Source: Rhodocyclales bacterium
GTDB lineage: Bacteria; Pseudomonadota; Gammaproteobacteria; Burkholderiales; Rhodocyclaceae
Direction: 5' to 3'
Assembly (NCBI GenBank): GCA_016235745.1
Contig: JACRJA010000012.1
Location: forward strand, 1 to 64,000
Length of the DNA: 64,000 nt
Translations under genes and position numbers: made by a program
Part shown: piece by piece, positions 33,705 through 63,947 of the stretch
Position numbering within the stretch: position 1 is the stretch's first letter
Layout of the letters: each line of letters starts with the position of its first letter
Notes under the pieces: generated by a model
What the model saw: the letters and a program-made list of their open reading frames with translations, nothing else
The model's database searches: none
Told to the model about the DNA's origin: nothing

Positions 33705-33773
33705 GGACGGCGTTCCGGTGAAGTGCTGGGGTAGAATCGCCGATTATAGGTGAGCAGCCGGCGAAAGCACACG

Positions 33774-34527: not shown

Positions 34528-36033
<1,506 letters not shown>

Positions 36034-36037
36034 TCCC

Positions 36038-37606: not shown

Positions 37607-37791
37607 GCTTCTCCCGGTTTTTCGTCTTCCAAGAGAAGACGAAATTTCGGGGGGCTCATCCGTCTGATCCACCAACTGGATCATGGCGCCAGCGCCACGC
37701 CCAATGCGTAGCGGACCTTCTTTGCCGAGTTTTTGCCACCACGGGCGTGTACGGCGCCTGGGGCAACAGTTGCCCCTTGAACTACACCAGT
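37607..37791. other. Intergenic segment with two inverted repeats after guaA
   Basis: No gene is supported here. An inverted repeat TTCGTCTTC/GAAGACGAA (37621-37643) just after guaA may help end transcription, though no T-run follows. A second perfect hairpin, GGGGCAACAGTTGCCCC, lies at 37760-37776, immediately before the 41-bp repeat. Open frames through the segment are short and unconvincing. The stretch marks the junction between housekeeping DNA and the nitrogen island. Confidence 0.5.
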
Positions 37792-37832
37792 CCTAAACTC
37801 GGATGAAATTTGTCTTGACAGAGGGGGCCAGT
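37792..37832. repeat. 41-bp direct repeat, left copy (IS-end-like)
   Basis: This 41-bp sequence differs from 55533-55573 at four positions only, in the same orientation. On the minus strand it starts with TGGCCCCCTCTGTCAAGACA, the style of an IS3-family terminal repeat. No transposase is next to it. Together with the right copy it brackets the urt-ure block. Confidence 0.75.
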
Positions 37833-37884
37833 CCATTCCGCCTTTTGCGTGCGAGGGCCTGATGGACGTCATTTCAGATCCCTC

Positions 37885-44895: not shown

Positions 44896-44911
44896 TGGAA
44901 CGCTTCTTGCT
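44896..44911 (+). promoter_or_regulatory. Sigma-54-type promoter of hybrid kinase gene
   Basis: TGGAACGCTTCTTGCT matches the -24/-12 consensus TGGCACG-N4-TTGCW at all positions but one, with the invariant GG and GC correctly 10 nt apart. Predicted start is near 44922, leaving about 34 nt to the start codon at 44956. Confidence 0.75.
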
Positions 44912-44955: not shown

Positions 44956-47900
44956 ATGACCACCCCTGCCAGCCAGCGCATCATCCGTCGGGAGTACAAT
45001 AGTTGGGTCGCTGACGAGACGCTGGAGGACTACGCCTTACGTTACGCCCCTCGTGGCTTCCGCAAGTGGTCATTCTCGCGCATCGCCCACACCGCGCTGG
45101 GCGCGGTATCCTTCCTGGCGATGGAAGCCATCGGCGGCACCATTGCACTGCATTGGGGCTTCACCAATGCGGTATGGGCGATCAGCCTGGTGGCGCTGGT
45201 GATCTTCCTCACCGGCCTGCCAATCAGCTACTACGCTGCGCGTGAGTCGGTGGACATGGACTTACTGACCCGCGGCGCCGGCTTTGGTTACATTGGCTCG
45301 ACCATCACCTCGCTGATCTACGCCTCCTTCACCTTCATCTTCTTCGCCATTGAGGCGGCGATCATGGCGCTGGCACTGGAGCTGTGGTTCGGGCTGCCGC
45401 TGCTGTGGGGCTACCTGCTGAGTTCGCTGGCGGTGATCCCGCTGGTGGCGCACGGCATCACCTGGATCAGCCGGCTGCAGGCGTGGACGCAGCCAGTGTT
45501 CGTCGTGCTGCTGCTGACGCCCTTCCTCGTCGTGCTGCTGCGCGAACCTGAGCTGTATGCCGCCTTCACCGAGTTCGGTGGACGCCACGGCAACGACGTC
45601 GACTGGCTGGCGATAGGCACTGGCTGCACCGTGGCCTTTGCACTGATCGCACAGATTGGCGAACAGGTGGACTTCCTGCGCTTCCTGCCGCCGGCCGACC
45701 GGCGCAACCGTGGACGCTGGTGGATCTCGGTGGTGGCGGCGGGGCCGGGTTGGATCATCCCTGGCGCGCTCAAGATGGTCGGCGGGGCCTTCCTTGTCTT
45801 CCTTGCACTGCAGGCGATGGTGCCGCCGGATAAGGCATTGCAGCCCACGCACATGTACCTGACGGGCTTCCAGCATGTGGTCGACGATCCGCGTGCGGCG
45901 ATCGCGCTCGCCTGCATTTTCGTCATCATCTGCCAGGTCAAGATCAACGTGACCAACGCCTATGCGGGGTCGTTGGCGTGGTCCAACTTTTTCTCGCGCC
46001 TCACGCACAGCCACCCGGGGCGGGTGGTGTGGCTGATTTTCAACGTGCTGATCGCGCTGATGCTGATGCTGCTCGGCGTGTTCGAGGCGCTGGAGCACGT
46101 ACTGAGCGTGTATGCCAACGTGGCGGTGGCTTGGATCGGTGCGGTGGTGGCCGACCTGGTGGTGAACAAGCCGCTTGGCCTGTCGCCGCGCCACATCGAG
46201 TTCAAACGCGCCTACCTCTACGATGTGAATCCGGTGGGAGTAGGTGCGATGCTGGCGGGCTCGGTGCTGGGCATCGTCGCCCTCGGCGGCTACCTGGGGC
46301 CGGTGGCGCAGGCCTTTGCACCCTTCATCTCGCTGCTGAGCGCCTTCGCGCTGGCACCGCTGATCGCCTGGAGCACGCGAGGCCGCTTTTACCTTGCCCG
46401 GCCGCGCGAGACGCAATGGCGCGCGGCCGAGCCGCTGCGCTGCGTGGTGTGCGAGAACCACTTCGAAGCCGAAGACATGGCCCATTGTCCGGTCTACGGC
46501 GGCGCCATATGCTCGCTGTGCTGCACGCTGGAGGCACGCTGCCGCGACCGCTGCAAGCCCGACGCCAGCCTGCTCTCGCGCTTCGCCCCGTTGCTGGCGG
46601 GCTGGATGCCGTCGTCGATATCGGCGCGCATGGCCCGTTGCGTGGGCCAGTTCGTGATGGTGTTTTTCGTCAGCAGCCTGGTGATTGCCTCAGTCGTGGG
46701 CCTGGTGTACCAGCAGGAACTGCTGGCGGAGCAGGCGGGGACGACCGACTTGGGACTGGCCTTCCTGCGCATCTTCGCGGTGCTCGTGCTGCTGGCGGCG
46801 GTGGGGGTGTGGTGGCTGGTGCTGGCCAACGAGAGCCGGCGGGGGGCGCAGGAGGAGTCCGATCTCCAGAACCAGTTGCTACTGCGCGAGATTGAGGCCC
46901 ACCGCGACACCGATGCCAAGCTGCAGCGGGCTAAGGAGGCCGCCGAGGCCGCCAACGTGGCCAAGAGCCGCTACGTGCGCGGCATCAGTCACGAGCTGCG
47001 CACGCCCCTCAACACCATCCTTGGCTACTCGCAGATCATGCTGCGTGACCCCGACCTGCCGCGGCACCGGCGCGAGGCGATTTCCACCATCCAGCGCAGC
47101 GGAGAACATCTGCTGGCGCTGATCGACGGCCTGCTCGATATCGCCAGCATCGAGGCCGGGCGCCTGCAGTTCAACCGCCAGGAGTTTCGCTTCGGCGAGT
47201 TCCTCGCTCACGTCGAAAAGATGATCGCGCTCGAGGCCGAGCGGAAGGGGCTGGTGTTTCGCACCGAGTTCGCCGGGCGCATGCCCGAAGTGGTGCAGGG
47301 CGACACCAGCCGCCTGCGCCAGATCCTGATCAATCTGCTCGCCAACGCGGTGCGCTACACCGAGCGCGGCGAGGTGGTGCTGAAGATCACCTACCAGAGC
47401 GAGATCGCGGTGTTCGAGATCCGCGACACCGGCTGCGGCATTCCCGAGGCGGACCTGGAGCGCATCTTCGAGCCCTTCGAGCGTGGCACAGGCAACCAGC
47501 CGCCGAGCGCGCCGGGCACCGGCCTCGGGCTCACCATCACCCGCCTACTGATTGATCTCGCTGGCGGCCAGCTCACGGTCAGCAGCACCCCGGGGCGCGG
47601 CAGCGTGTTCCGCGTCAAGCTGCATCTGCCGCGGGTGACACATCCGCGGGTGGCGACGCGGCCCGAGCGCGAGATCCGCGGCTACTTTGGCCCGCGGCGT
47701 AAGCTGCTGGTCGTCGACGACCAGCCGGCGCAGAGCCACCTGATCGCCGACATGCTGCGTCCGCGCGGTTTCCTGGTCGAGGAGTGCGAGCGACCGGACG
47801 ATGTGCTGCGCCAGGTGGAGTCCTTCGCGCCGGACATCGTGTTCCTCGACGTGTCGATGCCGGTGACCGATGGCTGGACGCTGAGCCGCCAGCTGCGCGA

Positions 47901-48417
47901 TGTGGGTTACAGCGGGCCGATCGTCATGGTCTCGGCCAACGCCTACGAGAATCTGCCGGACCGGCGTACGGCCGCGGGTTGCGACGACTTTATCGTCAAG
48001 CCGGTGCTGGAGACCGAACTGTTCGCCCGCCTCAGCACCTGGCTGGGACTGGCGTGGATCTATTCCGAGAGTGGCGATACGCCGCGGGTCGATGCGCCGG
48101 CCGCACCTGCAGGTGAGCTTTCGGCGCTGCTGCCGGCTCCGCCCGCCGACGACTCCGCGTCCGTTCGTCCTGCGACACTTGCGCCGGCGGTGCTGTCTGC
48201 CCTGTCCGGACACGTCCGCGCCGAGCTGCGCGAGTTTGCCGACCTCGGCCACCTGCAAGGCCTGGTGCGTCGCCTCGACGAACTCGAAGCCTTGCACCCT
48301 GAACTCCGCGCCCCGCTGGAAACCCTGCGCGCGCTGACCCTGGAGCTGCGCTTTGACACCCTCATCCAAGCCCTAGATGGAGTCGCCGATGACTGCCCCG
48401 ACGTTGTCGCTCCGTGA
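44956..48417 (+). CDS. Hybrid sensor histidine kinase with NCS1 permease-like N-terminus
   Basis: This 1153-residue protein joins several modules. Residues ~30-490 form a 12-helix NCS1 (cytosine/purine/hydantoin) permease-like domain (e.g. RGAGFGYIGSTITSL). A cysteine cluster (~494-535; CVVC...CPVYGGAICSLCC...CRDRC) looks metal-binding. Two more helices follow (~555-620), then a HisKA H-box (GISHELRTPLNTILGYSQ, His679), an ATPase domain (NLLANAVRYT, DTGCGIPEAD, GTGLGLTI) and a receiver (LLVVDDQPAQ, Asp965, KPVLE). The last ~100 residues resemble no domain I recognise. It probably senses urea, amides or related compounds by its transporter-like part and signals to the LuxR-type regulator encoded downstream, whose gene overlaps it. 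Confidence 0.88.
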   Translation: MTTPASQRIIRREYNSWVADETLEDYALRYAPRGFRKWSFSRIAHTALGAVSFLAMEAIGGTIALHWGFTNAVWAISLVALVIFLTGLPISYYAARESVDMDLLTRGAGFGYIGSTITSLIYASFTFIFFAIEAAIMALALELWFGLPLLWGYLLSSLAVIPLVAHGITWISRLQAWTQPVFVVLLLTPFLVVLLREPELYAAFTEFGGRHGNDVDWLAIGTGCTVAFALIAQIGEQVDFLRFLPPADRRNRGRWWISVVAAGPGWIIPGALKMVGGAFLVFLALQAMVPPDKALQPTHMYLTGFQHVVDDPRAAIALACIFVIICQVKINVTNAYAGSLAWSNFFSRLTHSHPGRVVWLIFNVLIALMLMLLGVFEALEHVLSVYANVAVAWIGAVVADLVVNKPLGLSPRHIEFKRAYLYDVNPVGVGAMLAGSVLGIVALGGYLGPVAQAFAPFISLLSAFALAPLIAWSTRGRFYLARPRETQWRAAEPLRCVVCENHFEAEDMAHCPVYGGAICSLCCTLEARCRDRCKPDASLLSRFAPLLAGWMPSSISARMARCVGQFVMVFFVSSLVIASVVGLVYQQELLAEQAGTTDLGLAFLRIFAVLVLLAAVGVWWLVLANESRRGAQEESDLQNQLLLREIEAHRDTDAKLQRAKEAAEAANVAKSRYVRGISHELRTPLNTILGYSQIMLRDPDLPRHRREAISTIQRSGEHLLALIDGLLDIASIEAGRLQFNRQEFRFGEFLAHVEKMIALEAERKGLVFRTEFAGRMPEVVQGDTSRLRQILINLLANAVRYTERGEVVLKITYQSEIAVFEIRDTGCGIPEADLERIFEPFERGTGNQPPSAPGTGLGLTITRLLIDLAGGQLTVSSTPGRGSVFRVKLHLPRVTHPRVATRPEREIRGYFGPRRKLLVVDDQPAQSHLIADMLRPRGFLVEECERPDDVLRQVESFAPDIVFLDVSMPVTDGWTLSRQLRDVGYSGPIVMVSANAYENLPDRRTAAGCDDFIVKPVLETELFARLSTWLGLAWIYSESGDTPRVDAPAAPAGELSALLPAPPADDSASVRPATLAPAVLSALSGHVRAELREFADLGHLQGLVRRLDELEALHPELRAPLETLRALTLELRFDTLIQALDGVADDCPDVVAP

Positions 48418-49042
48418 GCGCGAAGTCATCCTGCTGATCGACGACGCACCGGACACGGTGCGCATGATCGCCGAGGCGCTCGACGAGACCGGCTACACTG
48501 TGCTGGTCGCCACCGACGGTGCCACCGCGCTGAAGCGGCTAGAGCGCATCACCCCCGATGCCGTGCTGCTCGACGCCTGCATGCCGGGCATGGACGGCTT
48601 CGAGACCTGTCGCCGGCTCAAGCAGACGCCGGGGATGCGTACCGTGCCGGTGATCTTTATGACGGGGTTGGCGGAGACCGAGCGCCTGGTCGAAGGCTTG
48701 TCCGCCGGGGGCATCGATTACCTGGTCAAGCCGGTCGTGCCCGACGAGCTGGTGGCGCGCTTGCAGGCGCACCTGCGCGTGGCGCGCGAGATGAATGCGG
48801 TGATGCGTGCGCGCGGAGAGGACGCCGAGCCTGACGCTGCGCTGCTGCCCAATCCGCTGACGCAGCGCGAGATGGACGTGCTGGAGTGGGTTGCGCGCGG
48901 CAAGACCAACCGCGACGTGGCAGACATTCTCGGCATGAGCCCACGCACGGTGAACAAGCACCTCGAGCACATCTACGAGAAGCTTGGGGTGGAGACACGC
49001 ACGGCAGCCGTAGCCCGGCTCGCGCGGCTTGTGCGCATCTGA
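48389..49042 (+). CDS. LuxR/NarL-family response regulator
   Basis: The 217-residue protein has a receiver domain (VILLIDDAPDTVRM, phospho-Asp62 in VLLDACMPGMDG, Lys in DYLVKPV) and a C-terminal LuxR helix-turn-helix (LTQREMDVLEWVARGKTNRDVADILGMSPRTVNKHLEHIYEKLGV). I chose ATG 48389 because GGAG lies 6 nt upstream; the earlier in-frame ATG 48377 is possible. It overlaps the kinase gene, so the two form a two-component system. LuxR-type regulators bind inverted repeats, making the 18-bp palindrome at urtA and amiE a plausible target. Confidence 0.9.
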   Translation: MTAPTLSLREREVILLIDDAPDTVRMIAEALDETGYTVLVATDGATALKRLERITPDAVLLDACMPGMDGFETCRRLKQTPGMRTVPVIFMTGLAETERLVEGLSAGGIDYLVKPVVPDELVARLQAHLRVAREMNAVMRARGEDAEPDAALLPNPLTQREMDVLEWVARGKTNRDVADILGMSPRTVNKHLEHIYEKLGVETRTAAVARLARLVRI

Positions 49043-49257
49043 GGTCTCTGGCTGCGCAGCCTGTCTGGTGTGCAGGGCGTTTGACGTGCGTCTCCTCACA
49101 CAGGTCGTCGGTCGTGCCTACCTGCACTGCCTGTCGTGCGAGGCCCCTTCCGTGTGCTCGCCTGCTGCTTCGGCTGGCAGTGCGAGGTGCCGTGCAAGGA
49201 TGTGGTGCTGTTGCGCAAGCCAGGCGGCTGACCGCCTCCCCTGTCGAGGTGAGCATG

Positions 49258-49274
49258 TGCACTATCTGTGTGCC
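49258..49274. promoter_or_regulatory. NtrC-like site, distal
   Basis: TGCACTATCTGTGTGCC approximates the NtrC palindrome TGCACYA-N3-TRGTGCA, with a good left half and a weaker right half. It is centred about 130 nt upstream of the predicted ureD transcription start. The rest of 49043-49396 holds no gene. Confidence 0.5.
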
Positions 49275-49290
49275 CCAGAGGACCATTTGG

Positions 49291-49307
49291 TGCACCGCAA
49301 TGGTGCG
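49291..49307. promoter_or_regulatory. NtrC-like site, proximal
   Basis: TGCACCGCAATGGTGCG matches the 17-bp NtrC consensus palindrome at nearly all key positions (TGCACC and TGGTGC halves with correct spacing). It is centred about 97 nt upstream of the predicted ureD transcription start, a standard enhancer distance. Confidence 0.72.
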
Positions 49308-49369: not shown

Positions 49370-49385
49370 TGGCACGTTATTTGCT
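49370..49385 (+). promoter_or_regulatory. Consensus sigma-54 promoter of urease operon
   Basis: TGGCACGTTATTTGCT fits the sigma-54 consensus TGGCACG-N4-TTGCW at every defined position, with GG and GC 10 nt apart. Transcription should start about 12 nt after the GC, near 49396, i.e. at or within a base or two of the ureD start codon at 49397. The urease operon message may therefore be almost leaderless. Confidence 0.85.
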
Positions 49386-49396
49386 CAGATTGGTGC

Positions 49397-50266
49397 ATGA
49401 ATGCTCCACTCTCTTTCCCCGCCGAGTACGTCATCGCGCCGCTGCGGCAGCAGGGCTGGCATGCGGCCTTGTCGCTGACCTATGCCCGCCGTGGGGATCG
49501 GAGCGTGCTTATCCGTCGCAGCCATGTCGGGCCGCTGGTCGTGCAGCGACCGCTGTATCCGGAGGACGAGGCGGTTTGCCACACCATCGTGGTTCATCCG
49601 CCGGCAGGCATTGCTGGCGGGGACAGTCTGCAGGTAACGGTGCGGGTGGAGGATGGTGCACATGCCTTGCTGACCACGCCGGGGGCGGGCAAGTGGTACC
49701 GCAGTACCGGTGCGCCTGGGATACTGGTGCAGCGCATCGCCGTGGCCGCGGGTGGCGTATGCGAGTGGCTGCCGCAGGAGAGCATCGTCCAGGACGGGGC
49801 GCTGGGTGCGCTGGTGACCGAGGTGAGCCTACAGGGCGACGCCTGTTTTGTCGGCAGCGAGATGTTGTGCTTTGGACGCACCGCCTCTGGCGAGCGTTTC
49901 GGCCGCGGCGAGATGGCGATGCGCACCCGCATCGAGCGTGATGGTCGCCCGCTGTGGCTGGAGCGCGGCGTACTGCAGGGCGGCGATGCCCTGCTGGATG
50001 CGGCCGTGGGCCTGCAGGGGCAGCCGGTCTGCGGCAGTTTCGTCGTCGCCTCGCCGCGCTGCGATGCCGACCTGCTGGCAGCGTGGCGCGACATTGTGCC
50101 CGCGGTCGGCGAAGGCGGCGTGACCCTGTTGCCAGGCCTGCTGGTGGCGCGCTGGCTGGGGCCGGCCTGCGAGCCCGGGCGCGAATGGTTCGCCCGCCTG
50201 TGGGCGAGCGTGCGGCCGGCGGTCGCCGGGCGGGCGGCGCAGACGCCGCGCATCTGGAATACCTAA
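49397..50266 (+). CDS. ureD: Urease accessory protein UreD
   Basis: UreD binds apo-urease and, with UreF and UreG, delivers nickel. The 289-residue protein has the family segments LTYARRGDRSVLIRRSHVGPLVVQRPLYPED, HPPAGIAGGDSLQV, LLTTPGAGKWYRS and LPQESIVQDGA. It is first in the urease operon. The chosen ATG 49397 has no visible ribosome-binding site and coincides with the predicted sigma-54 start site; the frame upstream is open but not UreD-like. Confidence 0.92.
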   Translation: MNAPLSFPAEYVIAPLRQQGWHAALSLTYARRGDRSVLIRRSHVGPLVVQRPLYPEDEAVCHTIVVHPPAGIAGGDSLQVTVRVEDGAHALLTTPGAGKWYRSTGAPGILVQRIAVAAGGVCEWLPQESIVQDGALGALVTEVSLQGDACFVGSEMLCFGRTASGERFGRGEMAMRTRIERDGRPLWLERGVLQGGDALLDAAVGLQGQPVCGSFVVASPRCDADLLAAWRDIVPAVGEGGVTLLPGLLVARWLGPACEPGREWFARLWASVRPAVAGRAAQTPRIWNT

Positions 50267-50305
50267 TCAACCCTTTGGCGGCGCGCTCGCGCTGAGGAGG
50301 ACACG

Positions 50306-50608
50306 ATGGAACTGAGCCCACGCGAGAAGGACAAGCTGCTGATCTTTACCGCCGGTCTGTTGGCCGAGCGTCGCCGCGCGCGCGGCCTGCGCCTCAACTA
50401 TCCCGAGGCGGTCGCCTTCATCACCTGCGCGATCCTCGAAGGCGCGCGCGACGGCCGCACGGTGGCCGAGCTGATGAGCTACGGTGCCACGCTGCTAACG
50501 CGGGACGAGGTGATGGATGGGGTTGCCGAGATGATCCCCGAAATCCAGGTTGAGGCGACCTTTCCGGATGGCACCAAGCTGGTCACAGTGCATAACCCGA
50601 TCGTGTGA
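50306..50608 (+). CDS. ureA: Urease subunit gamma
   Basis: UreA is the small structural subunit of the three-subunit bacterial urease. The 100-residue protein [39 protein letters not shown]...[11 protein letters not shown] is a standard gamma subunit. GAGGAG precedes the start. It follows ureD after 39 nt and is separated from ureB by a small unknown gene. Confidence 0.97.
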
Positions 50609-50630: not shown

Positions 50631-50939
50631 ATGAGCGAAGCCGAACTCGAGACCGCGCGCCTGCTGGCGCGCTTCAAGCTGATGGTGCGCCGCAGTTTGG
50701 ATCGCAGCGTTAACCTGGCCGCGATGCAGGCCGACCCGGTGCAGGCGGCGGCGGTGCTGGACGAGATCGAGGAACTCGCCGATGACGAGGAACTGCTGAC
50801 GATGGTGGTGCGCCTGCGTGAACGCCTGCTAGCGTCGGCGCCGGAAGCCCCAGGGGAACCGCCCCCCGAAGCCGAGGTGCCGTCCGCTGTCGCGCGTCCG
50901 GCGCTACGCGACTACCGTTTCGGCGCCCGCGGCAGTTGA
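50631..50939 (+). CDS. Unknown small protein encoded between ureA and ureB
   Basis: The 102-residue product starts [67 protein letters not shown]. It is amphipathic-helical and charged for about 70 residues, then has a Pro/Glu/Ala-rich linker and the ending [14 protein letters not shown]. There is no signal peptide, membrane helix or metal motif. GGGAGCAGGAAG precedes the ATG. It lies 22 nt after ureA and 28 nt before ureB with no frame disruption, so it should be co-translated with urease. I do not recognise the family. Confidence 0.75.
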
Positions 50940-50967
50940 ACACCCGATGTCTACGCAGGAGAAAAGG

Positions 50968-51272
50968 ATGATTCCCGGAGAACTCATGCCGTGCGACGGC
51001 GACATTGAACTCAATGCTGGCCGCGCCACGCTGACGCTGGTGGTGAGCAACACCGGTGACCGTCCGATCCAGGTCGGTTCGCACTACCACTTTGCCGAGA
51101 CCAACATGGCGCTGGCCTTCGATCGCGCGGCGGCACGAGGCTTCCGGCTGAACATCGCTGCCGGTACCGCGGTGCGCTTTGAGCCGGGACAGTCGCGCAC
51201 CGTCGAGCTGGTGGCGCTGGACGGGGAGCGCAAAGTCTATGGCTTCAACGGTCTCGTGATGGGAGCGCTGGA

Positions 51273-51276
<4 letters not shown>
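50968..51276 (+). CDS. ureB: Urease subunit beta
   Basis: UreB is the beta subunit of urease. The 102-residue protein [46 protein letters not shown] is canonical. I chose ATG 50968 because AGGAG lies 6 nt upstream and the family starts MIPGE; the open frame begins seven codons earlier. The 3' end overlaps ureC by 4 nt. Confidence 0.97.
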
Positions 51277-52979
<1,703 letters not shown>

Positions 52980-52997
52980 CTGAATCCTGGACGCATC

Positions 52998-53546
52998 ATG
53001 CCGATCAACAATGAAATGCTTGAAGACCTAGTTATGCCCGACGCCGCGTCGGCGGTGCTGCTGATCGAGGTCCTCTACGACGGCGACGCGCCGGCGACCG
53101 AAGTACTCGAGCTGGATTTCAGCAGGCGCACAAAGAGCCGCCTGCGCGCACGGCTCGCCTCCGGCACCGATGTTGGCCTGTTCCTGCCGCGCGGCACCAT
53201 CCTGCGCGGCGGCCAGAAGCTGCAATCGCGCGACGGTCGCATCGTCGAGGTGCGCTCGACGCCTGAAGACCTGCTCGAGGTGCGCTGCGCGTCCTCGCTG
53301 GAGCTGGCGCGCGCTGCCTACCATCTCGGCAACCGCCACGTCGCCGTGCAGGTCGGGCGCGACGCCAGCGGCGACTGGCTGCGCATCCAGGCAGATCATG
53401 TGCTTGAGGGCATGCTGCTCGGGCTGGGGGCCTCGGTCAGCAGTCTGCGCGCGCCCTTCGAGCCGGAGGCCGGCGCCTATGCGCATGGCCACCAGCATCC
53501 GGGCGATGGCAGCGGCGCGCGCATCCATCTGATGGCGGGCCATTGA
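52998..53546 (+). CDS. ureE: Urease accessory protein UreE
   Basis: UreE is the nickel metallochaperone of urease assembly. The 182-residue protein has the N-terminal peptide-binding half ([29 protein letters not shown]), the central metal-binding His in [12 protein letters not shown], and a His-containing tail [21 protein letters not shown]. The tail is shorter than that of Klebsiella UreE. ureF follows immediately. Confidence 0.94.
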
Positions 53547-53548
53547 GC

Positions 53549-54268
53549 ATGCCGATCAGCGCCACCCCGTTCGCAGCCGGTACCGGGCTACTGCCACTGG
53601 TGCGCCTGCTGCAACTGGCCAGCCCGGCGCTGCCGGTGGGTGCCTATACCTATTCGCAGGGCTTGGAGTGGGCGGTGGAGAGCGGTGCTGTGCGCACGGA
53701 GGTGGACGCTGCGGTCTGGATCGGCGACTTGCTGCAGTGGAACCTGGCGCGCTTCGAGGCGCCTCTGCTGGCCTGCCAGCTGGCAGCCTGGGCGGTGGGC
53801 AATGACGCCGAGGTGGCGCGCCTGAACGGCGATTTCCTCGCCAGCCGCGAGACCGCCGAACTGCGCGCCGAGACGGTTCAGATGGGCTGGTCCCTGATGA
53901 AGCTGCTGACCCAACTGGACGCCTTCGCCGCCTTGCCCGGCTGGCGCGTGCGCCTGCTGGCGATCGACACGCCGTGCTTTCCCTGCGCCTGGTCGGCGGC
54001 GGCTGCCGCCTGGCAGGTACCGGTTGCTCAGGCGCTGGCGGCCTACCTGTGGGCCTGGGCCGAGAACCAGGTGATGGCGGCGGTGAAGGCGGTGCCGCTG
54101 GGCCAGGGCGCAGGCCAGCGCCTGCTGGCCGCACTCGGTCAGCGCATCCCGCAGCTGGTCGAGGTTGCGCGCAGCCTACCCGAGGCACAGTGGAGCAACT
54201 ACACCCCGGGGCTGGCGATCGCCAGTAGCCGGCACGAAACCCAATACACGAGGCTGTTCAGATCATGA
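53549..54268 (+). CDS. ureF: Urease accessory protein UreF
   Basis: UreF gates the GTPase activity of UreG in the UreDFG complex. The 239-residue helical protein has the family opening [27 protein letters not shown] and the C-terminal [22 protein letters not shown], whose ordered tail is needed for binding UreD. I used ATG 53549; an in-frame TTG at 53543 overlaps the ureE stop. No strong ribosome site is visible, so coupling to ureE is likely. Confidence 0.93.
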
Positions 54269-54903
54269 GCATGAATATGAGCATTTCCGAGCACCGCGGC
54301 CCGCTGCGCGTCGGCATCGGCGGGCCGGTTGGTTCCGGCAAGACCGCGCTGACGCTGGCACTGTGCTTGGCGCTGCGTGACCGGTACAACATCGCCGTCA
54401 TCACCAACGACATCTACACTGCGGAGGACGCCCAGTTCCTAGTGCGCAACGAGGCGCTCGCGCCCGAGCGCATCATTGGCGTCGAGACCGGCGGCTGCCC
54501 TCACACCGCGATCCGCGAGGACGCCTCGATCAACCTCGAGGCGGTCGACCGGCTCAACATGCGCTTTCCCGGACTGGATATCATCTTCATCGAATCCGGC
54601 GGCGACAACCTGGCGGCCACCTTCTCGCCCGAGCTGTCGGACCTGACGATCTACGTCATCGACGTGTCGGCTGGCGACAAGATCCCACGCAAAGGCGGCC
54701 CCGGCATCACCCGTAGCGACCTGCTGGTGATCAACAAGATCGACCTCGCGCCGCTGGTGGGCGCGTCGCTCGAGGTTATGGACCGCGATGCGCGAAGGAT
54801 GCGTGGCACACGCCCCTTCATCTTCTCCAACCAGAAGACGGGGCAGGGGCTCGCCGATATCATCGACTTCATCGAGCGTCAGGGCATGCTGGTTGCCCCC
54901 TGA
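54265..54903 (+). CDS. ureG: Urease accessory GTPase UreG
   Basis: UreG is the SIMIBI-class GTPase that hands over nickel during urease activation. The 212-residue protein has P-loop [18 protein letters not shown], the metal-binding CPH motif in [38 protein letters not shown], and base-recognition NKID. The start overlaps the end of ureF by 4 nt. Nearby later ATGs (MSMNMSIS) leave the exact start open by a few codons. Confidence 0.97.
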
Positions 54904-54941: not shown

Positions 54942-55547
54942 ATGAAGACCCGCTCCGTGTTCGCCGCTGTCGCCCTCGCCGCCGCATCGGGCGCCGCGCT
55001 CGCCCACCCCGGCCATGAGTCAGCCAGCTTCTTCACCGGCTTCACCCACCCGCTGGGCGGCCTTGACCATCTGCTGGCGATGCTGGCCGTCGGCCTGTAT
55101 GCCGCGCGCCAGCCGGGCGCAACGCGCTGGATGCTGCCCGTCGGCTTCGTGCTGGCGATGCTCGCCGGGGCTGGGCTGGGTGCGCTCGGCGTCGCGCTGC
55201 CGGCGGTGGAGGCGGGCATCGCGGCATCGGTGCTGGTGTTCGGTCTGTTGATCGCGTTTGCCGCGAGCCTGCCGCTGACTGTCAGCCTGCCGCTGATCGC
55301 TGCCTTGGCGCTGTTCCACGGTCATGCCCACCATGCCGAGATGGGTGGCGCCAGCCTCGTGACCTACGCGGCGGGTTTTGCTCTGGCGACGGGATTGCTG
55401 CATGGCGCAGGCTACGTGATTGCACGCTGGATCCCGCAGACGTGCGCCGGCAATGTGATCAAGCGCGTCGCTGGTCTGATGGTGGGGGGCGTAGGCAGCG
55501 CTGTTGCGCTGCGAGTGAAGCGATGGACGCAGCTTAAACTCGAATGA
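54942..55547 (+). CDS. ureJ: HupE/UreJ-type membrane protein, C-terminus altered
   Basis: UreJ/HupE proteins are small inner-membrane proteins proposed to take up nickel for urease or hydrogenase. The 201-residue product has a cleavable-looking N-terminus (AAASGAALAHPGHE), the signature GFTHPLGGLDHLLAMLAVGLYA and the HGHAHHAEM helix, all normal. The last residues (RVKRWTQLKLE) are charged instead of a membrane helix. The stop codon is inside the 41-bp repeat, so the natural end was replaced by the repeat insertion. It may still function, as the conserved helices are present. Confidence 0.85.
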   Translation: MKTRSVFAAVALAAASGAALAHPGHESASFFTGFTHPLGGLDHLLAMLAVGLYAARQPGATRWMLPVGFVLAMLAGAGLGALGVALPAVEAGIAASVLVFGLLIAFAASLPLTVSLPLIAALALFHGHAHHAEMGGASLVTYAAGFALATGLLHGAGYVIARWIPQTCAGNVIKRVAGLMVGGVGSAVALRVKRWTQLKLE

Positions 55548-55573
55548 AATCTGTCTTGACAGAGGGGTCCAGT
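55533..55573. repeat. 41-bp direct repeat, right copy (IS-end-like)
   Basis: This is the second copy of the 37792-37832 sequence (37 of 41 identical, same orientation). On the minus strand it reads TGGACCCCTCTGTCAAGACA, the style of an IS3-family end. It overlaps the final codons and stop of ureJ and ends 6 nt before the stop codon of the convergent norD-like gene. Confidence 0.75.
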
Positions 55574-55578
55574 TCACT

Positions 55579-57306
55579 TCAGCCCCCCACCAGTTCGGCG
55601 TAGCTGCGCGCCAGCGTGACGGCGAGTCGGGCCGGATCGTCGACAATCCGGTAGCCGCCGTGTCCAAAAATCCGGCGCACATCCGCCTCGGACGCGCGGT
55701 CCAGACTGAGGCAGAAGCAGCGCACGCCCTTGCGTCGTGCCTCGACCACCGCACGCGCGGCGTCCTCGACTAGATGGCGGGCGTCGAATACGTCGATGTC
55801 CGACGGTGAGCCGTCCGACAGCACCAGCAGCGTGCGTTGCGCGCTCATCTCCTGCGCCAGCCGCGCTGTTGCGTGGCGCATGGCCGCGCCCAGCCGGGTG
55901 GATAGCCCTGGCCGAACAGCGCCCAGCACCATCATCGGGTCGGTCGGCACGGCCTGGCCGAAGTCGAGCAGGCGCAGGTAGTTCACCGCCTGCCGACCGT
56001 CCGAATTGAAACCAGCGACCTCAAGCCTGTCCTCGCGGTTACGCAGCGCATCCATCAGTAGCGCGGCAGCTTCGCATTCCAAATCCAGTACGTTGCGCCC
56101 ACAGGACTGCATGTCGGCAGTGGAAGCGGACAGGTCGAGCAACAGCAGCAGGCTGGTGCGCGGCACGGAACGGCCGTTACGACGGAACAGTCGCGGATCG
56201 GGTACCAGTCCCAGCCGACGGTCGATAAAGACCTCGGTGGCGGCGTCCAGATCCAGCTCGTCGCCTTCCCACTGGCGGCGGATGCGCTGGCTGCGGTCGA
56301 GACGGCAGCTGCGCGCCAGCCGCAGCGGCAGGCGCGCAGGCGGCGTCGGTGTGCTGGCCGAAGTGGGCGGCACGGCGCGCTCGATCACGGTGCACCACTT
56401 GTCGCGGGCGCGGTCGAGGCGGTAGTGCCACTCCGGGTAGTCGTGGCGGGCGAGCTCAGGCAGGGACATCGATTCCGGCGCTTCTTCCGGCGCCTGCGGC
56501 GGTACGGACCGGCGTTCGCCCTGCGGTGGCGGGTGGCACAGCGTAGTTTTGGCCTGCTCGGCGTCAGCACCGTGCGCCCACAGGTGACTGTTATCGTCGT
56601 GCCAGGGCAGAGGAGGGGCGTAGGTCTGCAGGTTCATGCGCACGCGCAACTGACCGAGATCGTTGGCCAGAACCGACACCAATTCACGGAAGGCCTCGGC
56701 CTCATCCAGCCGTTCGGCCTGCGCCTCGAACAGCGCGCGGCCTTTACACACCCAGGCATTGTCGTCTTCGGTCTGTGGGTCGAGCAGCACGCGCTGCAGG
56801 CGCGCAATCATCGCCTCGAAGCCCACTTGAGGCAGTTCCGTCTGGCAGCGCAGCAGGCGGCGGAACAGACGTCCGATGCCGGGGTAGCGGCGGATCATCA
56901 GGCGGTCGACACGCACGTCCTCGATGGCACCGGCCAGCGCCAGGCTCATAGGCTTGCGCTTTCCCGCTTCTTGGCGGCGCGGGGAATGGCGTAGATGGCC
57001 AATAGCGTGCAGCGTGGCGGCGAGGTGGAATTCGTCGGCAGGCAGTGTCCATGCGGGCGGCGCCTCAGGCAGCAGCAGGGTGGCGCCGTGCAGTACCGGG
57101 CGCAGCGCAGGGCCGTCCTGCGGCGGGCGTTCCAGCGCCTGCACATTACCGTCGTCGACGCCGAAGGCGTGCATCACATGGCCGAGTGCGGCCAGACGGG
57201 GGGCGAAGTCTGTTGGCGCCCGGCATCGGCCACCACACCATGCTGCGGGTAACTCAGAAGGCCGATTCAAGGATGGCTCCCAGCGCACGTTGCATGTCTG
57301 GGTCAT
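55579..57306 (-). CDS. VWA-domain protein, NorD/CbbO type
   Basis: The 575-residue protein has a C-terminal von Willebrand A domain with MIDAS motif (LLLLDLSASTADM, later LVLSDGSPSDID) and an N-terminal metal-peptidase-like region (FHLAATLHAIGHLR). This layout is that of NorD and CbbO, which work with AAA partners (NorQ, CbbQ) to activate or assemble enzymes such as nitric oxide reductase or Rubisco. Neither target is present here; the neighbour is an amidase. Its start overlaps the AAA gene by 53 nt, so a later start is possible. Confidence 0.8.
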   Translation of the reverse strand: MTQTCNVRWEPSLNRPSELPAAWCGGRCRAPTDFAPRLAALGHVMHAFGVDDGNVQALERPPQDGPALRPVLHGATLLLPEAPPAWTLPADEFHLAATLHAIGHLRHSPRRQEAGKRKPMSLALAGAIEDVRVDRLMIRRYPGIGRLFRRLLRCQTELPQVGFEAMIARLQRVLLDPQTEDDNAWVCKGRALFEAQAERLDEAEAFRELVSVLANDLGQLRVRMNLQTYAPPLPWHDDNSHLWAHGADAEQAKTTLCHPPPQGERRSVPPQAPEEAPESMSLPELARHDYPEWHYRLDRARDKWCTVIERAVPPTSASTPTPPARLPLRLARSCRLDRSQRIRRQWEGDELDLDAATEVFIDRRLGLVPDPRLFRRNGRSVPRTSLLLLLDLSASTADMQSCGRNVLDLECEAAALLMDALRNREDRLEVAGFNSDGRQAVNYLRLLDFGQAVPTDPMMVLGAVRPGLSTRLGAAMRHATARLAQEMSAQRTLLVLSDGSPSDIDVFDARHLVEDAARAVVEARRKGVRCFCLSLDRASEADVRRIFGHGGYRIVDDPARLAVTLARSYAELVGG

Positions 57307-58051
57307 CGGTAATTGGGGCGGTCATCGCCATGCGGCAACTGTCGATGGGTGGCAGCCCGTCGCGGATCAGAACGCCGGCGTAGATCAGCATACGGGTGGA
57401 GATGCCCTCATCCAGCCCGCGCTCGCGCAGAAGGCGCGACTGATGGGCGATGTTGACCAGCCGGGCAGCCAGCGCGTGGTCTATGCCTGCTTCGTGGGCG
57501 ACGATATCCGCCTCGGCCTCCGCCGTCGGGTAGTCGAACTCCAGCGCTGCAAAGCGCTGGCGGGTAGATTGCTTGAGGCCCTTGCTATAGTGCTGGTAGC
57601 CGGGGTTGTAGGAGACGACGAGCTGAAAGTCTGGATGTGCGGCTACGATCTCGCCCTTTTTGTCTAGCGGCAGGATGCGGCGACTGTCCGTAAGGGGGTG
57701 AATCACCACCGTGGTGTCCTGCCGCGTCTCGACCACTTCATCCAGGTAGCAGATGGCACCGTGACGCACAGCGGTGGTGAGCGGGCCATCATGCCAGCGC
57801 GTGCCTTCGGCATCGAGCAGATAGCGGCCGACGAGGTCGGCAGCGGTCATGTCCTCGTTGCAGGCCAGAGTGATCAGCGGCTTGCCCAAGCGCCAGGCCA
57901 TGTATTCGACGAAGCGCGTCTTGCCGCAGCCGGTCGGGCCCTTGAGCATCAACGGTAAGCGGTGAGCGTAGGCGTGCTCGTAGAGGGCAATTTCGTGGCC
58001 GGTGGGGCGGTAGTAGGGCTCGGCGGTGAGGCGGTAAGGGGCGAGGTCCAT
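57254..58051 (-). CDS. MoxR-type AAA ATPase, NorQ/CbbQ/AmiB-like
   Basis: The 265-residue protein has Walker A LMLKGPTGCGKTRFVEYMAWRLG, Walker B AICYLDEVVETRQDTT, sensor 1 VSYNPGYQ and the Arg-finger-like STRQRFAALEF. It is close to NorQ/CbbQ/NirQ. In Pseudomonas aeruginosa the amidase operon includes amiB, an AAA protein of related type, so amiE followed by this gene matches that order. I chose the start at 58051 (MDLAPYRL), 61 nt after amiE; the longer frame upstream is a shadow of amiE. Confidence 0.85.
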   Translation of the reverse strand: MDLAPYRLTAEPYYRPTGHEIALYEHAYAHRLPLMLKGPTGCGKTRFVEYMAWRLGKPLITLACNEDMTAADLVGRYLLDAEGTRWHDGPLTTAVRHGAICYLDEVVETRQDTTVVIHPLTDSRRILPLDKKGEIVAAHPDFQLVVSYNPGYQHYSKGLKQSTRQRFAALEFDYPTAEAEADIVAHEAGIDHALAARLVNIAHQSRLLRERGLDEGISTRMLIYAGVLIRDGLPPIDSCRMAMTAPITDDPDMQRALGAILESAF

Positions 58052-58112
58052 AGCGTTCGTCCGAATGGGCACGCCCGACATCCCGCGGGACATCGGGCGG
58101 CCGAAGGGGCAA

Positions 58113-59150
58113 TCAGCGATGGGCCGATGGCTGGTTGGGGATGCCCTCGATCGGGCATTCCGGCGTGCCCACGGTGGAACGGGTGATTGCCTCCACCTTC
58201 TTGCGCGTGCCTTCCGGATCATTGATCCACTCGCCGTAGAAGCTGTAGGGGCAGGCGGCAACGCCGGTGGGTTCTTCGCCGGAGTTGATCTTGCCGGTGT
58301 AGCCACGGTGCAGCAGCTTGAAGAGGTGGTTCTCCGACTGCGCGTTCTTGCGGAAATCGCGGATCAGGCTGGTAGAGAGTTCGGCGTACTGGATGCCCAT
58401 CTCTTCCTCACCGCATTCGCCCAGCGTACGGCCGTCGAAGCCAATGATGGCCGAGTGGCCGAAGTAGGAATACACACCGTCGAATCCGGTGGCGTTGGCT
58501 ACGGCCACGTAGCAGTTGTTCATCCACGCCATCGCCTTGGCCACCATCACCTGCTGGTCCTTGGCCGGGTACATGTAGCCTTGGCAGCGCACGATCAACT
58601 CGGCGCCCTTCATCGCGCAGTCACGCCAGATCTCGGGGTAGTTGCCGTCATCGCAGATGATGAGACTGATCTTCATGCCCTTAGGGCCATCAGACACATA
58701 GGTGCAGTCGCCCGGATACCAGCCTTCGATTGGCACCCAAGGCATGATCTTGCGGTATTTCTGCACAATCTCGCCACGGTCGTTCATCAGGATCAGCGTG
58801 TTATAGGGCGCCTTGTTAGGGTGGTCTTCATGACGCTCGCCGGTCAGCGAGAACACACCCCACACCTTGGCCTTGCGGCAGGCGGCGGCGAAGATCTCGG
58901 TCTCCTCGCCCGGTACCATGGCCGCGGTGTCGTACATTTCTTGGGGGTCGTACATGATCCCGTGGGTCGAATACTCGGGAAAGATCACCAGATCCATTCC
59001 CGGCAGGCCCTTCTTCATGCCTACCACCATTTCAGCAATCTTGCGCGCATTGTCCAGCACCTCGGCCTTGGTGTGCAGGCGCGGCATCTTGTAGTTGACC
59101 ACCGCAACGCCCACGCAATCGGCGCTGCTCGAAATGTCTCCGTGTCTCAT
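58113..59150 (-). CDS. amiE: Aliphatic amidase
   Basis: AmiE hydrolyses short aliphatic amides such as acetamide and propionamide to acid plus ammonium in the cytoplasm. The 345-residue protein follows the Pseudomonas aeruginosa enzyme closely from MRHGDISSS onward. The nitrilase-fold catalytic residues are Glu59 (FPEYS), Lys (QKYRKI) and Cys ([14 protein letters not shown]), all intact, with [10 protein letters not shown] also conserved. It is divergent from the SDR gene and preceded by the same palindromic operator as urtA. The AAA and VWA genes follow it in one operon. AmiE and FmdA give this island two unrelated amide hydrolases. Confidence 0.95.
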
Positions 59151-59194
59151 GGATTGGGTCTCCTGGTGAGGTGGGTTGCAAAGGATGTGCTCTC

Positions 59195-59222
59195 ATTATC
59201 AGAGGGGCGGTGCGCCGCACAA
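59195..59222 (-). promoter_or_regulatory. Sigma-70-like promoter of amiE
   Basis: On the minus strand TTGTGC (59217-59222) and GATAAT (59195-59200) are 16 nt apart. The palindromic operator ends directly at the -35 box, the geometry of an activator that touches RNA polymerase. The predicted start near 59188 leaves a leader of about 38 nt to the amiE ATG. Confidence 0.6.
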
Positions 59223-59240
59223 ATACGTTGTTTGACGTAT
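59223..59240. promoter_or_regulatory. 18-bp palindromic operator of amiE promoter
   Basis: ATACGTTGTTTGACGTAT is, on the opposite strand, ATACGTCAAACAACGTAT. It differs from the urtA site by one base. Its position next to the -35 of amiE, and the downstream CGCCCCT bases shared with the urtA promoter, argue for one activator of both operons. Confidence 0.72.
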
Positions 59241-59746
59241 CGGGTTGCTTGAATGATATAATGCGTAATCTGAAATGCATAGATGATTCCGCCGTCGCTG
59301 ATATATCGTTTACGCTCGCTGTGGCGCGCAAGGGGCCGAGCATGACGCAAAATCGGCAGGAGAAGCGGGATGGGTAGAGTACGCATGCTCTACGTTTTGA
59401 GCGATGCGCTGTGGGAGGGGATCGAGCCTTTGATTTCTGTACCGGCACCGGTGCATCCAGGAGAAAAGGGCATGATGTCAAGGTAGTTCGGGTGATCGTT
59501 TTTGCTTACCCGAGCGCCACTTTCGGCAACATTGCTCGGACGGGCTCGGCGGCGGGGCCGAAACCGCTGGCGCGGCGACACCAAGTCAAAGTCTGCGACC
59601 CACGAAGCCCCCGCGACGACGACGCAAGTCGTTAAGCGGTGGGGGAGGTTATGTCGGGTGCTACGTTGCTAATCGATGAGTGAGTGGGCGTGATTCCTCT
59701 TTCCTTATCTCGAGTTTCAGTTATACCTTGATAAACGTATTGACAT
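59241..59746. other. Long intergenic region between amiE and SDR gene
   Basis: No gene is supported in this stretch. It holds an inverted repeat TAGAG...CTCTA at 59377-59394, the second copy of the 17-bp shared motif, and an AT-rich segment at 59690-59745 that probably carries the SDR promoter (TTGACA at 59740-59745). Short open frames here lack homology-like features and have poor codon character. Confidence 0.5.
59403..59419. repeat. 17-bp motif shared with urtA-kinase intergenic region, copy 2
   Basis: GATGCGCTGTGGGAGGG is identical to 44760-44776, same strand, again preceded 9 nt upstream by TAC. It lies about 160 nt from the palindromic operator, further than in the other region. Role unknown. 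Confidence 0.6.
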
Positions 59747-59767
59747 ATTTCCGCATCGTACGGAAAT
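59747..59767. promoter_or_regulatory. Inverted-repeat operator upstream of SDR gene
   Basis: ATTTCCG and CGGAAAT form a perfect 7-bp inverted repeat with a 7-nt spacer, ending 19 nt before the SDR start codon. It lies just downstream of a perfect -35-like TTGACA (59740-59745), so a protein bound here would block transcription. This arrangement fits a TetR-type or similar repressor; no such gene is in the window. Confidence 0.55.
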
Positions 59768-59786
59768 CCAGGTAAGGAGGAGTGGG

Positions 59787-60677
59787 ATGGCAATCGAGAC
59801 GTATCGTTCGGTGTTCCGGCCTGGCTTGTTCGCCGGCCAGAGCGTCATCGTCACGGGCGGGGGGAGCGGCATCGGGCGCTGCACGGCGCACGAGCTGGCG
59901 AGCCTGGGGGCCAAGGTCGCCTTGGTGGGGCGGCGTCGCGAGAAACTCGCAGCGGTCAAGGCAGAGATCGAGGCCGGTGGCGGAAGTGCCACGATCCACT
60001 CTTGTGATATTCGCGACGAAGAAGCGGTCAAGGCGATGGTAGCCCAAGTGCTCGCCCAGCATGGCCGCATCGATGGTCTCGTCAATAACGCCGGTGGCCA
60101 GTTTCCCGCCCGTGCGCGCGACATCACGCTCAAGGGGTGGGAGGCGGTGGTCAAGAACAACCTTACTGGCGGTTTCCTCGTCTCGCGCGAAGTGTATACG
60201 CAGTGGATGGAGGAACACGGCGGAGCCATCGTAAACATCATCGCCGACATCTGGGGTGGGATGCCGACCATGGCGCACAGTGGCGCAGCGCGCGCTGGTA
60301 TGCTTTCGTTTACCGAGACCGTCGCCTGCGAATGGGCCCATTCGGGAGTGCGCGTCAATGCCGTGGCGCCGGGGTGGATTGCCAGCAGCGGCTTTGACAC
60401 CTACGACGAGGCGATGCAACAGGAATTGCGCCGTCTGCAGACGAAAGTGCCGCTGCAGCGCTACGGCACCGAGGCCGAGGTCTCGGCGGCGATCGTCTTC
60501 CTGCTGTCCGAGGCGGCCGCCTTCATCACGGGTTCCTATATTCGTGTCGATGGTGGCGTGCCCAACGCGCGTCCAACATGGAAACTCATTGCGCACGACC
60601 GCTCGAAACCGTTCAATGGCTTCCTGCTCTATCGACCACCGCGCTGCTTGCAACCCGAAGCGGGAGAACCTTCATGA
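59787..60677 (+). CDS. SDR-family oxidoreductase, dienoyl/enoyl-CoA reductase-like
   Basis: The 296-residue protein has the NAD(P) loop VTGGGSGIGRCTA, LVNNAGGQFPARARDITLKGW and the C-terminal FITGSYIRVDGG. In place of the usual catalytic Tyr-x3-Lys it reads MAHSGAARAGMLSF, the pattern found in the 2,4-dienoyl-CoA / trans-2-enoyl-CoA reductase-like branch of SDRs. A role in acyl-CoA metabolism is likely but the substrate is unknown. A strong AAGGAGGAG precedes the ATG. Its stop overlaps the start of the next gene. Confidence 0.8.
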   Translation: MAIETYRSVFRPGLFAGQSVIVTGGGSGIGRCTAHELASLGAKVALVGRRREKLAAVKAEIEAGGGSATIHSCDIRDEEAVKAMVAQVLAQHGRIDGLVNNAGGQFPARARDITLKGWEAVVKNNLTGGFLVSREVYTQWMEEHGGAIVNIIADIWGGMPTMAHSGAARAGMLSFTETVACEWAHSGVRVNAVAPGWIASSGFDTYDEAMQQELRRLQTKVPLQRYGTEAEVSAAIVFLLSEAAAFITGSYIRVDGGVPNARPTWKLIAHDRSKPFNGFLLYRPPRCLQPEAGEPS

Positions 60678-61381
60678 GCCGTACTTTCTTTTCCGATACC
60701 GATATCCTCGCCGATTCCGATCGCTTTGCCCCTTACCTACGCCCTGGGGTCTTCGTCGATAGCGACCATCCTGCCGTGATCGACTTCGCTCGGTCGCGGG
60801 TCGAGGCGTGCGAGAGTGCCCTCGAGGCTGCCGTGCGTCTGTACTACGCCGTGCGCGATGAGTTTCTCTACGACCCTTACGGCATCGATACCTCCGTCGA
60901 GGCCCTCAAGGCGAGTCGGGTGATCGAAGTGGGCCGCGGTTTTTGCGTACCCAAGGCAGCTTTGCTGGCGGCGGCGGCCCGCGCCGTGGGTATTCCGGCT
61001 CGAGTGGGCTATGCCGACGTGCGCAACCACCTTACCAGTCCGCGCCTGCGCGAGGCCATGGGGACGGATCTCTTCGTCTTCCACGGGTATACCGAATTGT
61101 GGCTCGAGGGGAGATGGGTGAAAGCCACCCCGGCCTTCAATCGGACTTTATGCGAAAAGGCTGGAATCAAACCCTTGGAATTCGACGGACGGCAGGATTC
61201 GTTGTTTCACGAGTTCGATGTCGCCGGTCGTCGCCACATGGAGTATGTACGGGATCGTGGCACGTTCGCCGATTTGCCGCGCGAGCAGATGCTGGCGGCC
61301 TGGGCCGAGCATTATCCCGGTTATGAGCGCTGGGCAGGTGCAGTCAAGGGGGATTTTCAGTCCGAGGCACAGGGGCAGTAG
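60674..61381 (+). CDS. Transglutaminase-like cysteine protein
   Basis: The 235-residue protein has a transglutaminase-core triad region: Cys in VGRGFCVPKAALLAAAARAVGIPAR, His in FHGYTELWLEGRW, then VKATPAFN where the usual Asp is replaced by Ala. It has no signal peptide and is therefore cytoplasmic. Small bacterial proteins of this type are often hydrolases or proteases of unknown substrate. The start at 60674 overlaps the SDR stop codon by 4 nt, so the pair is coupled. It ends with TAG. Confidence 0.75.
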   Translation: MSRTFFSDTDILADSDRFAPYLRPGVFVDSDHPAVIDFARSRVEACESALEAAVRLYYAVRDEFLYDPYGIDTSVEALKASRVIEVGRGFCVPKAALLAAAARAVGIPARVGYADVRNHLTSPRLREAMGTDLFVFHGYTELWLEGRWVKATPAFNRTLCEKAGIKPLEFDGRQDSLFHEFDVAGRRHMEYVRDRGTFADLPREQMLAAWAEHYPGYERWAGAVKGDFQSEAQGQ

Positions 61382-61390
61382 CGATAAGCG

Positions 61391-62722
61391 CTACTGCGCG
61401 CGGCCGCTGCCGCCCAGCAGCACCGCCACCACCGCTTTCTTGTTCCCGGCGCGGTGCGGAGCCGCTTCCTTTGCTGCGGCAAGCACGGCGTCAGCCTTGG
61501 GTTCGTAGGGGCGGGAGAAGTCGAAGCCGTCGGGGGAGCGCCCGCTGCGTTCGCTGCGGCGGCGGGCGGGTTCGGCGCGCCGTTCACGCGCCGGCGGCTC
61601 CAGCGTCTCGCAAGGGATGGCGCGGCCGAGCATTTTTTCGATGGCTTGGAGCCGCTCTGCTTCGCTCGCATCGACGAGCGAGATTGCCAAGCCTTCGTGC
61701 CCGGCGCGACCGGTGCGCCCGACGCGGTGGATGTAGTCTTCGGGGTTGGAGGGCAGGGCGAAGTTGATGACGAAGGGGAGCTCTTCGATGTCTAGCCCTC
61801 GGGCGGCGACGTCGGTGGCCACGAGCACGCGCAAGCGCCCGCTTTTGAAGGCTTCGAGCACGTCGAAGCGCTGCTGCTGGGATTTGTCGCCGTGGATCGC
61901 TTCGGCCTGGATACCGTGCCGCTGCAGGTGGGAAGCAAGCCGTCCGCAGGCGATCTTGGTGTCGACGAAGACGAGCGCCTGACCGGGGTGGCGCTGCAGC
62001 AGCTCGACGAGCGCCTCGCGCTTATGCGGGGCCTCGCAGCGCACGATGCGGTGCGTGATGGTCTCGCTCACCGTGTTGCGCTGCGCCACTTCGATCGTTT
62101 CCGGCTCGCGCAGCAGCTGCTGCGCGAGTTTCTTGATTTCGGGCGAGAAGGTGGCCGAGAAGAGCACGGTCTGGCGTTGCTGCGGCAAGCGCTCCATGAT
62201 GCGGCGGATGTCGGGCATGAACCCCATGTCGAGCATCCGGTCGGCTTCGTCGAAGACGAGAAATTCGACCTGGTTGAGCTGGATGGTCTTCTGTTCGAGG
62301 TGATCGAGCAGCCGTCCCGGCGTGGCCACGACGATTTCCACGCCGCGGCGCAGTTCCTCGATCTGCGGCTTGATGTCCACGCCGCCATAGATCGCCGCGG
62401 CGCGCAGCGGCAGATGCTTGCCGTACTGACGCACGGATTCATAGACTTGCAGCACCAGCTCGCGCGTGGGGGCGAGGACGAGCGCGCGCACGGGGTGGCG
62501 GGCAGGGCTTGCCGAGGTGTTGGCGTGGGGCGCGAGGCGCTGCAGCAGCGGCAGGGTGAATCCGGCGGTCTTGCCGGTGCCGGTTTGGGCGGCGCCGAGC
62601 AGGTCCTTGCCGGCGAGGATGCGCGGGATGGCTTGGGCCTGGATCGGCGTGGGTTCGGTGTAACCGAGGTCGTTGACGGCGGCAAGCAGTTCCGGCAGAA
62701 GCCCAAGCTCAGAGAAAGTCAT
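61391..62722 (-). CDS. rhlE: DEAD-box RNA helicase, RhlE type
   Basis: RhlE-type helicases remodel RNA in ribosome assembly and mRNA decay. The 443-residue protein has the Q motif (FSELGLLPELLAAVNDLGYTEPTPIQAQAIP), AAQTGTGKTAGF, PTRELVLQV, VFDEADRMLDMGFMPD, FSATFSPE, and the C-domain motifs VATDVAARGLDIEELPFVINF and HRVGRTGRAG. The basic tail (about 75 residues, ERRAEPARRRSERSGRSP) is typical of RhlE. It converges with the transglutaminase-like gene, 9 nt apart. Confidence 0.92.
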   Translation of the reverse strand: MTFSELGLLPELLAAVNDLGYTEPTPIQAQAIPRILAGKDLLGAAQTGTGKTAGFTLPLLQRLAPHANTSASPARHPVRALVLAPTRELVLQVYESVRQYGKHLPLRAAAIYGGVDIKPQIEELRRGVEIVVATPGRLLDHLEQKTIQLNQVEFLVFDEADRMLDMGFMPDIRRIMERLPQQRQTVLFSATFSPEIKKLAQQLLREPETIEVAQRNTVSETITHRIVRCEAPHKREALVELLQRHPGQALVFVDTKIACGRLASHLQRHGIQAEAIHGDKSQQQRFDVLEAFKSGRLRVLVATDVAARGLDIEELPFVINFALPSNPEDYIHRVGRTGRAGHEGLAISLVDASEAERLQAIEKMLGRAIPCETLEPPARERRAEPARRRSERSGRSPDGFDFSRPYEPKADAVLAAAKEAAPHRAGNKKAVVAVLLGGSGRAQ

Positions 62723-62806
62723 CGGAGGTCGTGCGCTCCAGAAACGGAAGGAAAGGGTCAGGACAAGAAATTATACGCCGGTATCGGGTGATCGACAGCA
62801 GCGCGT

Positions 62807-63871: not shown

Positions 63872-63947
63872 GGCGTACACTACGAGCGAAACGGTAATGA
63901 TACCGCGGCGCGCCCGCGGCGACGCGCTTTTCGACGAGGAGAGAACA

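Follow-up and report, generated by a model that had tools for sequence, protein, structure and literature searches.

In sigma-54 promoters, a GG box lies at −24 and a GC box at −12 relative to the transcription start (PMC4842269). Surveys of sigma-54 regulons list urease genes, including UreD, among the targets, chiefly those of alpha- and betaproteobacteria (PMC12316311). N2-fixing conditions raise the expression of ureD and ureABC 2–8.8-fold in a relative, Azoarcus olearius BH72 (PMC8467165). Leaderless mRNAs are known from the same order: leaders shorter than 5 nt make up 4.67% of the primary starts of Cupriavidus metallidurans (PMC7563307), and 72 genes of Burkholderia cenocepacia have a start exactly at the codon (PMC4603805). 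The leaderless starts of S. meliloti are all AUG (PMC3616915). 70S ribosomes are able to bind an AUG at the 5′ end of a message, and translation can follow (PMC4965119). So far, the leaderless genes of bacteria have been tied to −10-type promoters.

The ureD gene in the window, by which we mean the whole 64-kb stretch of DNA analysed here, reads as an NtrC/sigma-54-driven and essentially leaderless gene with a leader of 0–2 nt, an interpretation to which we give a probability of roughly 85%. Its promoter element (Table 1) has the GG box at 49371–49372 and the GC box at 49383–49384 (GG-N10-GC), and agrees with the consensus TGGCAC-N5-TTGC at 12/12 scored positions, although the base preceding the core is A rather than the usual Y. 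The −12 C lies at 49384, and the A of the ureD ATG is 13 nt 3′ of it. The preliminary description had placed a full-consensus promoter at 49370 and the ureD ATG at 49397, and our analysis confirmed both the coordinates and the complete match. Such elements are rare: the 2.16-Mb genome contains the full consensus three times (the reversed control pattern never), and only two sites in the window score at least 11/12, each before a gene of the urea-utilisation cluster. The genome also encodes rpoN (Sigma54_DBD, 6.0e-65). Of the two window sites, the second has its −12 C 46 nt 5′ of the ATG at 44956 and would leave a leader of ~33 nt, so genes of this neighbourhood do not generally share the short spacing seen at ureD.

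Table 1. Positions in the window of the ureD promoter region, the urease operon and the second sigma-54 site
Feature	Position	Strand	Basis or remark
Second sigma-54 site, TGGAACG-N4-TTGCT = TGGAACGCTTCTTGCT	44896–44911	+	Before the permease-like/histidine-kinase gene (ATG 44956)
Putative NtrC-type dyad TGCACT-ATCTG-TGTGCC, centre ~−131	49258–49274	+	17/20; kept in closest relatives
Putative NtrC-type dyad TGCACC-GCAAT-GGTGCG, centre ~−98	49291–49307	+	19/20 by the scoring used; kept in closest relatives
Sigma-54 −24/−12 promoter, TGGCACG-N4-TTGCT = TGGCACGTTATTTGCT	49370–49385	+	Consensus match; kept in 46 ureD loci
Predicted transcription start, likeliest the A of the ATG (49397), with C before it	49395–49397	+	Distance from GC; −1 base C
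ureD, urease accessory protein, 289 aa	49397–50266	+	Pfam UreD PF01774, 4.8e-53; conserved start
ureA Shine-Dalgarno GAGGAGG, strong, in contrast to ureD	50294–50300	+	Sequence and anti-SD pairing
ureA, urease gamma subunit, next operon gene	50306–50608	+	Pfam
ureB, ureC, ureE, ureF, ureG, remaining operon	50947–54903	+	ureC by Pfam; others by position and translation

The strongest evidence comes from the spacing between promoter and start codon in other genomes. We gathered ureD loci from named genomes plus the family and the order, and retained those with a −24/−12 element of at least 10/12 and an in-frame ATG, the ATG itself thus being part of the filter. This gave 46 distinct loci, including those of Thauera, Azoarcus, Parazoarcus, Aromatoleum and Pseudothauera, in which the A of the ATG follows the −12 C at a distance of 13 nt (30 loci), 14 nt (15) or 15 nt (1); the loci are related, and these counts overstate their independence. 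No GTG or TTG was found at 12–15 nt from the −12 C, except for one spurious match in L020. Where enough sequence was available, UreD falls into 32 identity clusters at 90%, 23 at 80% and 11 at 70%, and the distance is 13 or 14 in every cluster representative. The spacer from the −12 element to the ATG is only 0.36 identical among the 11 representatives, and the ATG lies 16–33 codons from the conserved UreD tryptophan. The fixed distance on one side and the variable one on the other indicate that insertions and deletions are common after the ATG and nearly absent before it. Elements of at least 10/12 have a background of 3 in 67,200 positions in the upstream DNA of ureD homologues, and a chance match to the consensus was rejected because 46 distinct loci carry the site at exactly this place. 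A quick tree needs 7 changes to explain the trait, against a shuffled mean of 26, which means strong clustering and few gains or losses. Four family members depart from the pattern: in L132 a GTG lies 36 nt past the −12 C, in L136 the distance is 17, in L028 GG and GC are one base further apart, and L020 has a weaker site at a distance of 12.

When a strict pattern with an ATG at N10–12 was applied to 22 genomes, 10 of the 13 matches were ureD and the other three preceded genes whose real starts lie elsewhere. By this pattern, ureD is the only gene with the fused geometry among the 22 genomes, and the idea that the sigma-54 genes of the family are leaderless in general was rejected on the same ground. 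If any ATG 4–34 nt past the element is allowed, the spacings are otherwise scattered. Outside the family, the arrangement occurs in none of the 28 closest loci retrieved from the same order. Two loci there, L156 and L175, have strong elements at odd places; in L156 (genome G234) a full-consensus site and the ureD ATG overlap, which would put a start 12 nt further on inside the reading frame.

The preliminary description had expected transcription to start at 49395–49397, about 12 nt past the GC, which agrees with the C+12 convention, give or take 1–2 nt. A C precedes the ATG in 40/46 loci with the element and in all 11 cluster representatives, compared with 31/78 ureD loci without it. Transcription usually initiates at a purine that has a pyrimidine before it, and the A of the ATG is therefore the likeliest +1. 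In several loci with a distance of 14, an A two nucleotides 5′ of the ATG could be the start instead. Sigma-54 start positions shift by one or two nucleotides. A leader of 1–3 nt is hence just as possible as no leader, particularly in loci with a distance of 14 or 15. We consider a ureD leader of 0–2 nt most likely and do not claim exactly zero.

A Shine-Dalgarno sequence is missing before ureD. Pairing with the anti-Shine-Dalgarno sequence gives −0.5 kcal/mol for ureD, compared with −12.1 kcal/mol for its operon neighbour ureA and an average of −2.6 kcal/mol (sd 2.5) at random positions of the window, and the mean over the comparison loci is −1.2 kcal/mol before ureD versus −7.4 kcal/mol before ureA. 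The earlier remark that no ribosome-binding site fits in front of the ureD ATG is borne out by these values. The −10 element ~10 nt before the ATG that marks the described sigma-70 leaderless type is absent as well, its place being occupied by the −12 element TTGCT. A structured 5′ RNA or riboswitch was also considered and rejected, as there was no Rfam match and the first 60 nt fold slightly worse than shuffles.

The rival explanation that survives best, though it is improbable, is that the operon is transcribed mainly from another promoter upstream, so that ureD usually has a leader and the sigma-54 spacing matters little. A promoter that departs from the consensus could go unnoticed in the ~350 bp of intergenic DNA, and many genes have several starts. 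However, no sigma-70-like site was found in the region upstream of ureD (a weak negative), a longer leader would also lack a Shine-Dalgarno sequence before the ureD ATG, and a spacing of 13–14 nt would not be held if it were unimportant. In the same intergenic region, between the response regulator gene and ureD, there is a 3′ gene remnant at ~49138–49230 whose frame is broken in the window; its counterpart in the relative G139, a Thauera-like genome, is methyltransferase-like, judged by eye.

The ureD ATG occupies 49397–49399, no more than 2 nt from the predicted 5′ end of the message. The preliminary description had left two options, a nearly leaderless ureD or a true start further downstream in frame. 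The first is strongly supported by the comparison, through the ATG spacing in 46 loci. The second, in which the promoter is real but a downstream start gives the message an ordinary leader, would restore the leader, but we regard it as very unlikely. Besides the ATG being conserved at a fixed distance in those loci, the first in-frame start codon that follows it in the window, a TTG at ~49469, falls within the conserved GWHAAL motif, and mismatches after the ATG number 30/23/60 at codon positions 1/2/3 (only 14 pairs, a small sample), a bias to third positions suggesting that the codons past the ATG behave as coding. A UreD start further upstream was likewise rejected: in 12/46 loci an in-frame stop lies within the −12 element (TTGCTRA), four codons 5′ of the ATG, which makes such a start impossible there. 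The second ureD codon is AAT or AAC in 38/46 loci with the element versus 12/78 without it, and the cause could lie at the protein level or in an mRNA that favours A-rich sequence behind a 5′-terminal AUG. Further along the operon, a small gene of 102 aa (50631–50939) with no Pfam or NCBIfam match lies between ureA and ureB, where G139 has ~180 bp less DNA.

Upstream of the promoter, two NtrC-type dyads lie 33 bp apart (Table 1), as scored against the pattern TGCACC-N5-GGTGCA. A dyad of at least 15/20 is present 50–260 bp upstream in 42/46 loci, where ~11 would be expected from shuffles. The genome has one ntrC above the curated cut-off (TIGR01818, 691 bits against 558.6). From these dyads we infer that NtrC binds and activates the ureD promoter.

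Judged by sequence similarity, the urease cluster belongs to a Thauera-like island of ~22 kb, carried by a small-genome relative. The window matches the host genus at 80–91% over 30172–37607 and 59674–64000, and in the relative G039 (contig C23) these two flanks adjoin, at 70184–74523 and 74503–78836, whereas the ~22 kb between them (~37608–59674) match G139 at 88–93%. The presence of Thauera-like DNA between host-genus flanks indicates that the urea island was acquired and that the promoter geometry came along with it. Mis-binning of the contig was rejected, since both flanks match the host genus at 80–91%. The order of the island pieces differs from that in G139, the counterpart of 55577–59341 preceding the piece that matches 37880, as in a circular permutation. 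Two repeats were noted in passing: one of ~85 bp at 55494–55577 recurs in part at 37794–37842 and elsewhere in the host genome, and a ~130-bp element at 30025–30175 has dozens of copies (mostly 85–95%) across the host genome and genus. The gene at 44956–48417 encodes a protein of 1153 aa in which a membrane-transporter-like N-terminal half, reading like an NCS1-type permease but without a Pfam match, is joined to a hybrid histidine kinase; it is overlapped by a LuxR-type response regulator gene (48377–49042). The sigma-54 site in front of the kinase gene points to a sensor under nitrogen control close to the urea genes.

The acquisition bears on the weakest rival, which we consider very improbable: a chance or relic match without function in this host would fit with the ~90% identity of the island to a Thauera-like genome, when the rpoN genes of host and G139 are only ~69% alike and the host regulators thus differ from those of the donor, but the window copy has the full consensus and is better than the TGGCCCG of the donor-like copy, both NtrC dyads are retained, and the host has rpoN and ntrC.

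Returning to the NtrC/sigma-54-driven, essentially leaderless ureD, we propose that an NtrC-activated sigma-54 promoter drives ureDABCEFG. When nitrogen is limiting, NtrC-P at the dyads at ~−98 and ~−131 would loop onto RNAP-sigma54 at 49370–49385 and open the promoter, and transcription would start on, or at most 2 nt from, the A of the ureD ATG. The operon mRNA would then begin with a 5′-terminal or nearly 5′-terminal AUG and no Shine-Dalgarno sequence, so that UreD would be initiated by the leaderless route, probably by 70S ribosomes, and the downstream ureA would be translated via its strong Shine-Dalgarno sequence. The exact start site, leaderless translation and any effect on UreD:UreABC stoichiometry are what we infer within this scheme. 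A broader proposal is that these loci form a conserved class of sigma-54 genes whose promoter and start codon are fused, leaderless by design and kept because leaderless initiation is useful; we hold it tentatively and with some doubt. If it is true, the accessory protein UreD could for example be kept low relative to UreABC, or its synthesis be favoured in nitrogen-starved cells.

If the essentially leaderless reading is borne out, leaderless initiation is compatible with enhancer-dependent control, and selection can maintain the two together. The ureD locus offers a clean test system, with one gene, one regulator and the Shine-Dalgarno-led ureA downstream as an internal control. It is suited to asking whether protein stoichiometry is set by leaderless starts, or whether such starts promote translation during starvation. 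Both leaderless genes and sigma-54 promoters have been described before, and we found no description of their conserved fusion, though it may have been recognised earlier. The sigma-54 regulon surveys yielded no mention of a fused promoter and start codon, and in the open-access papers found, neither ureD nor sigma-54 genes as a class are tied to leaderless messages.

Among the described systems, the nearest are the NtrC-activated sigma-54 promoters of the glnA type, which like ureD combine a −24/−12 element with a nitrogen-scavenging gene; the likeness extends to the paired upstream NtrC dyads ~33 bp apart at ~−98/−131. Xylella glnA differs in having its mapped start 35 bp before the ATG and a Shine-Dalgarno sequence (PMC3224663), whereas 0–2 nt and no Shine-Dalgarno sequence are predicted for ureD. 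The Klebsiella pneumoniae operon ureDABCEFG shares ureD as the first gene and nitrogen control, but it has two core promoters, one of them NAC-dependent (PMC3415461), while the sequence here points to direct NtrC/sigma-54 control. Finally, ureD resembles the leaderless mRNAs of bacteria in its AUG at the (predicted) 5′ end and its lack of a Shine-Dalgarno sequence. The motifs described for leaderless genes are TA-rich and −10-type or extended −10 (PMC4842269, PMC4603805), whereas that of ureD is a −24/−12 element that would be under an enhancer-binding protein.
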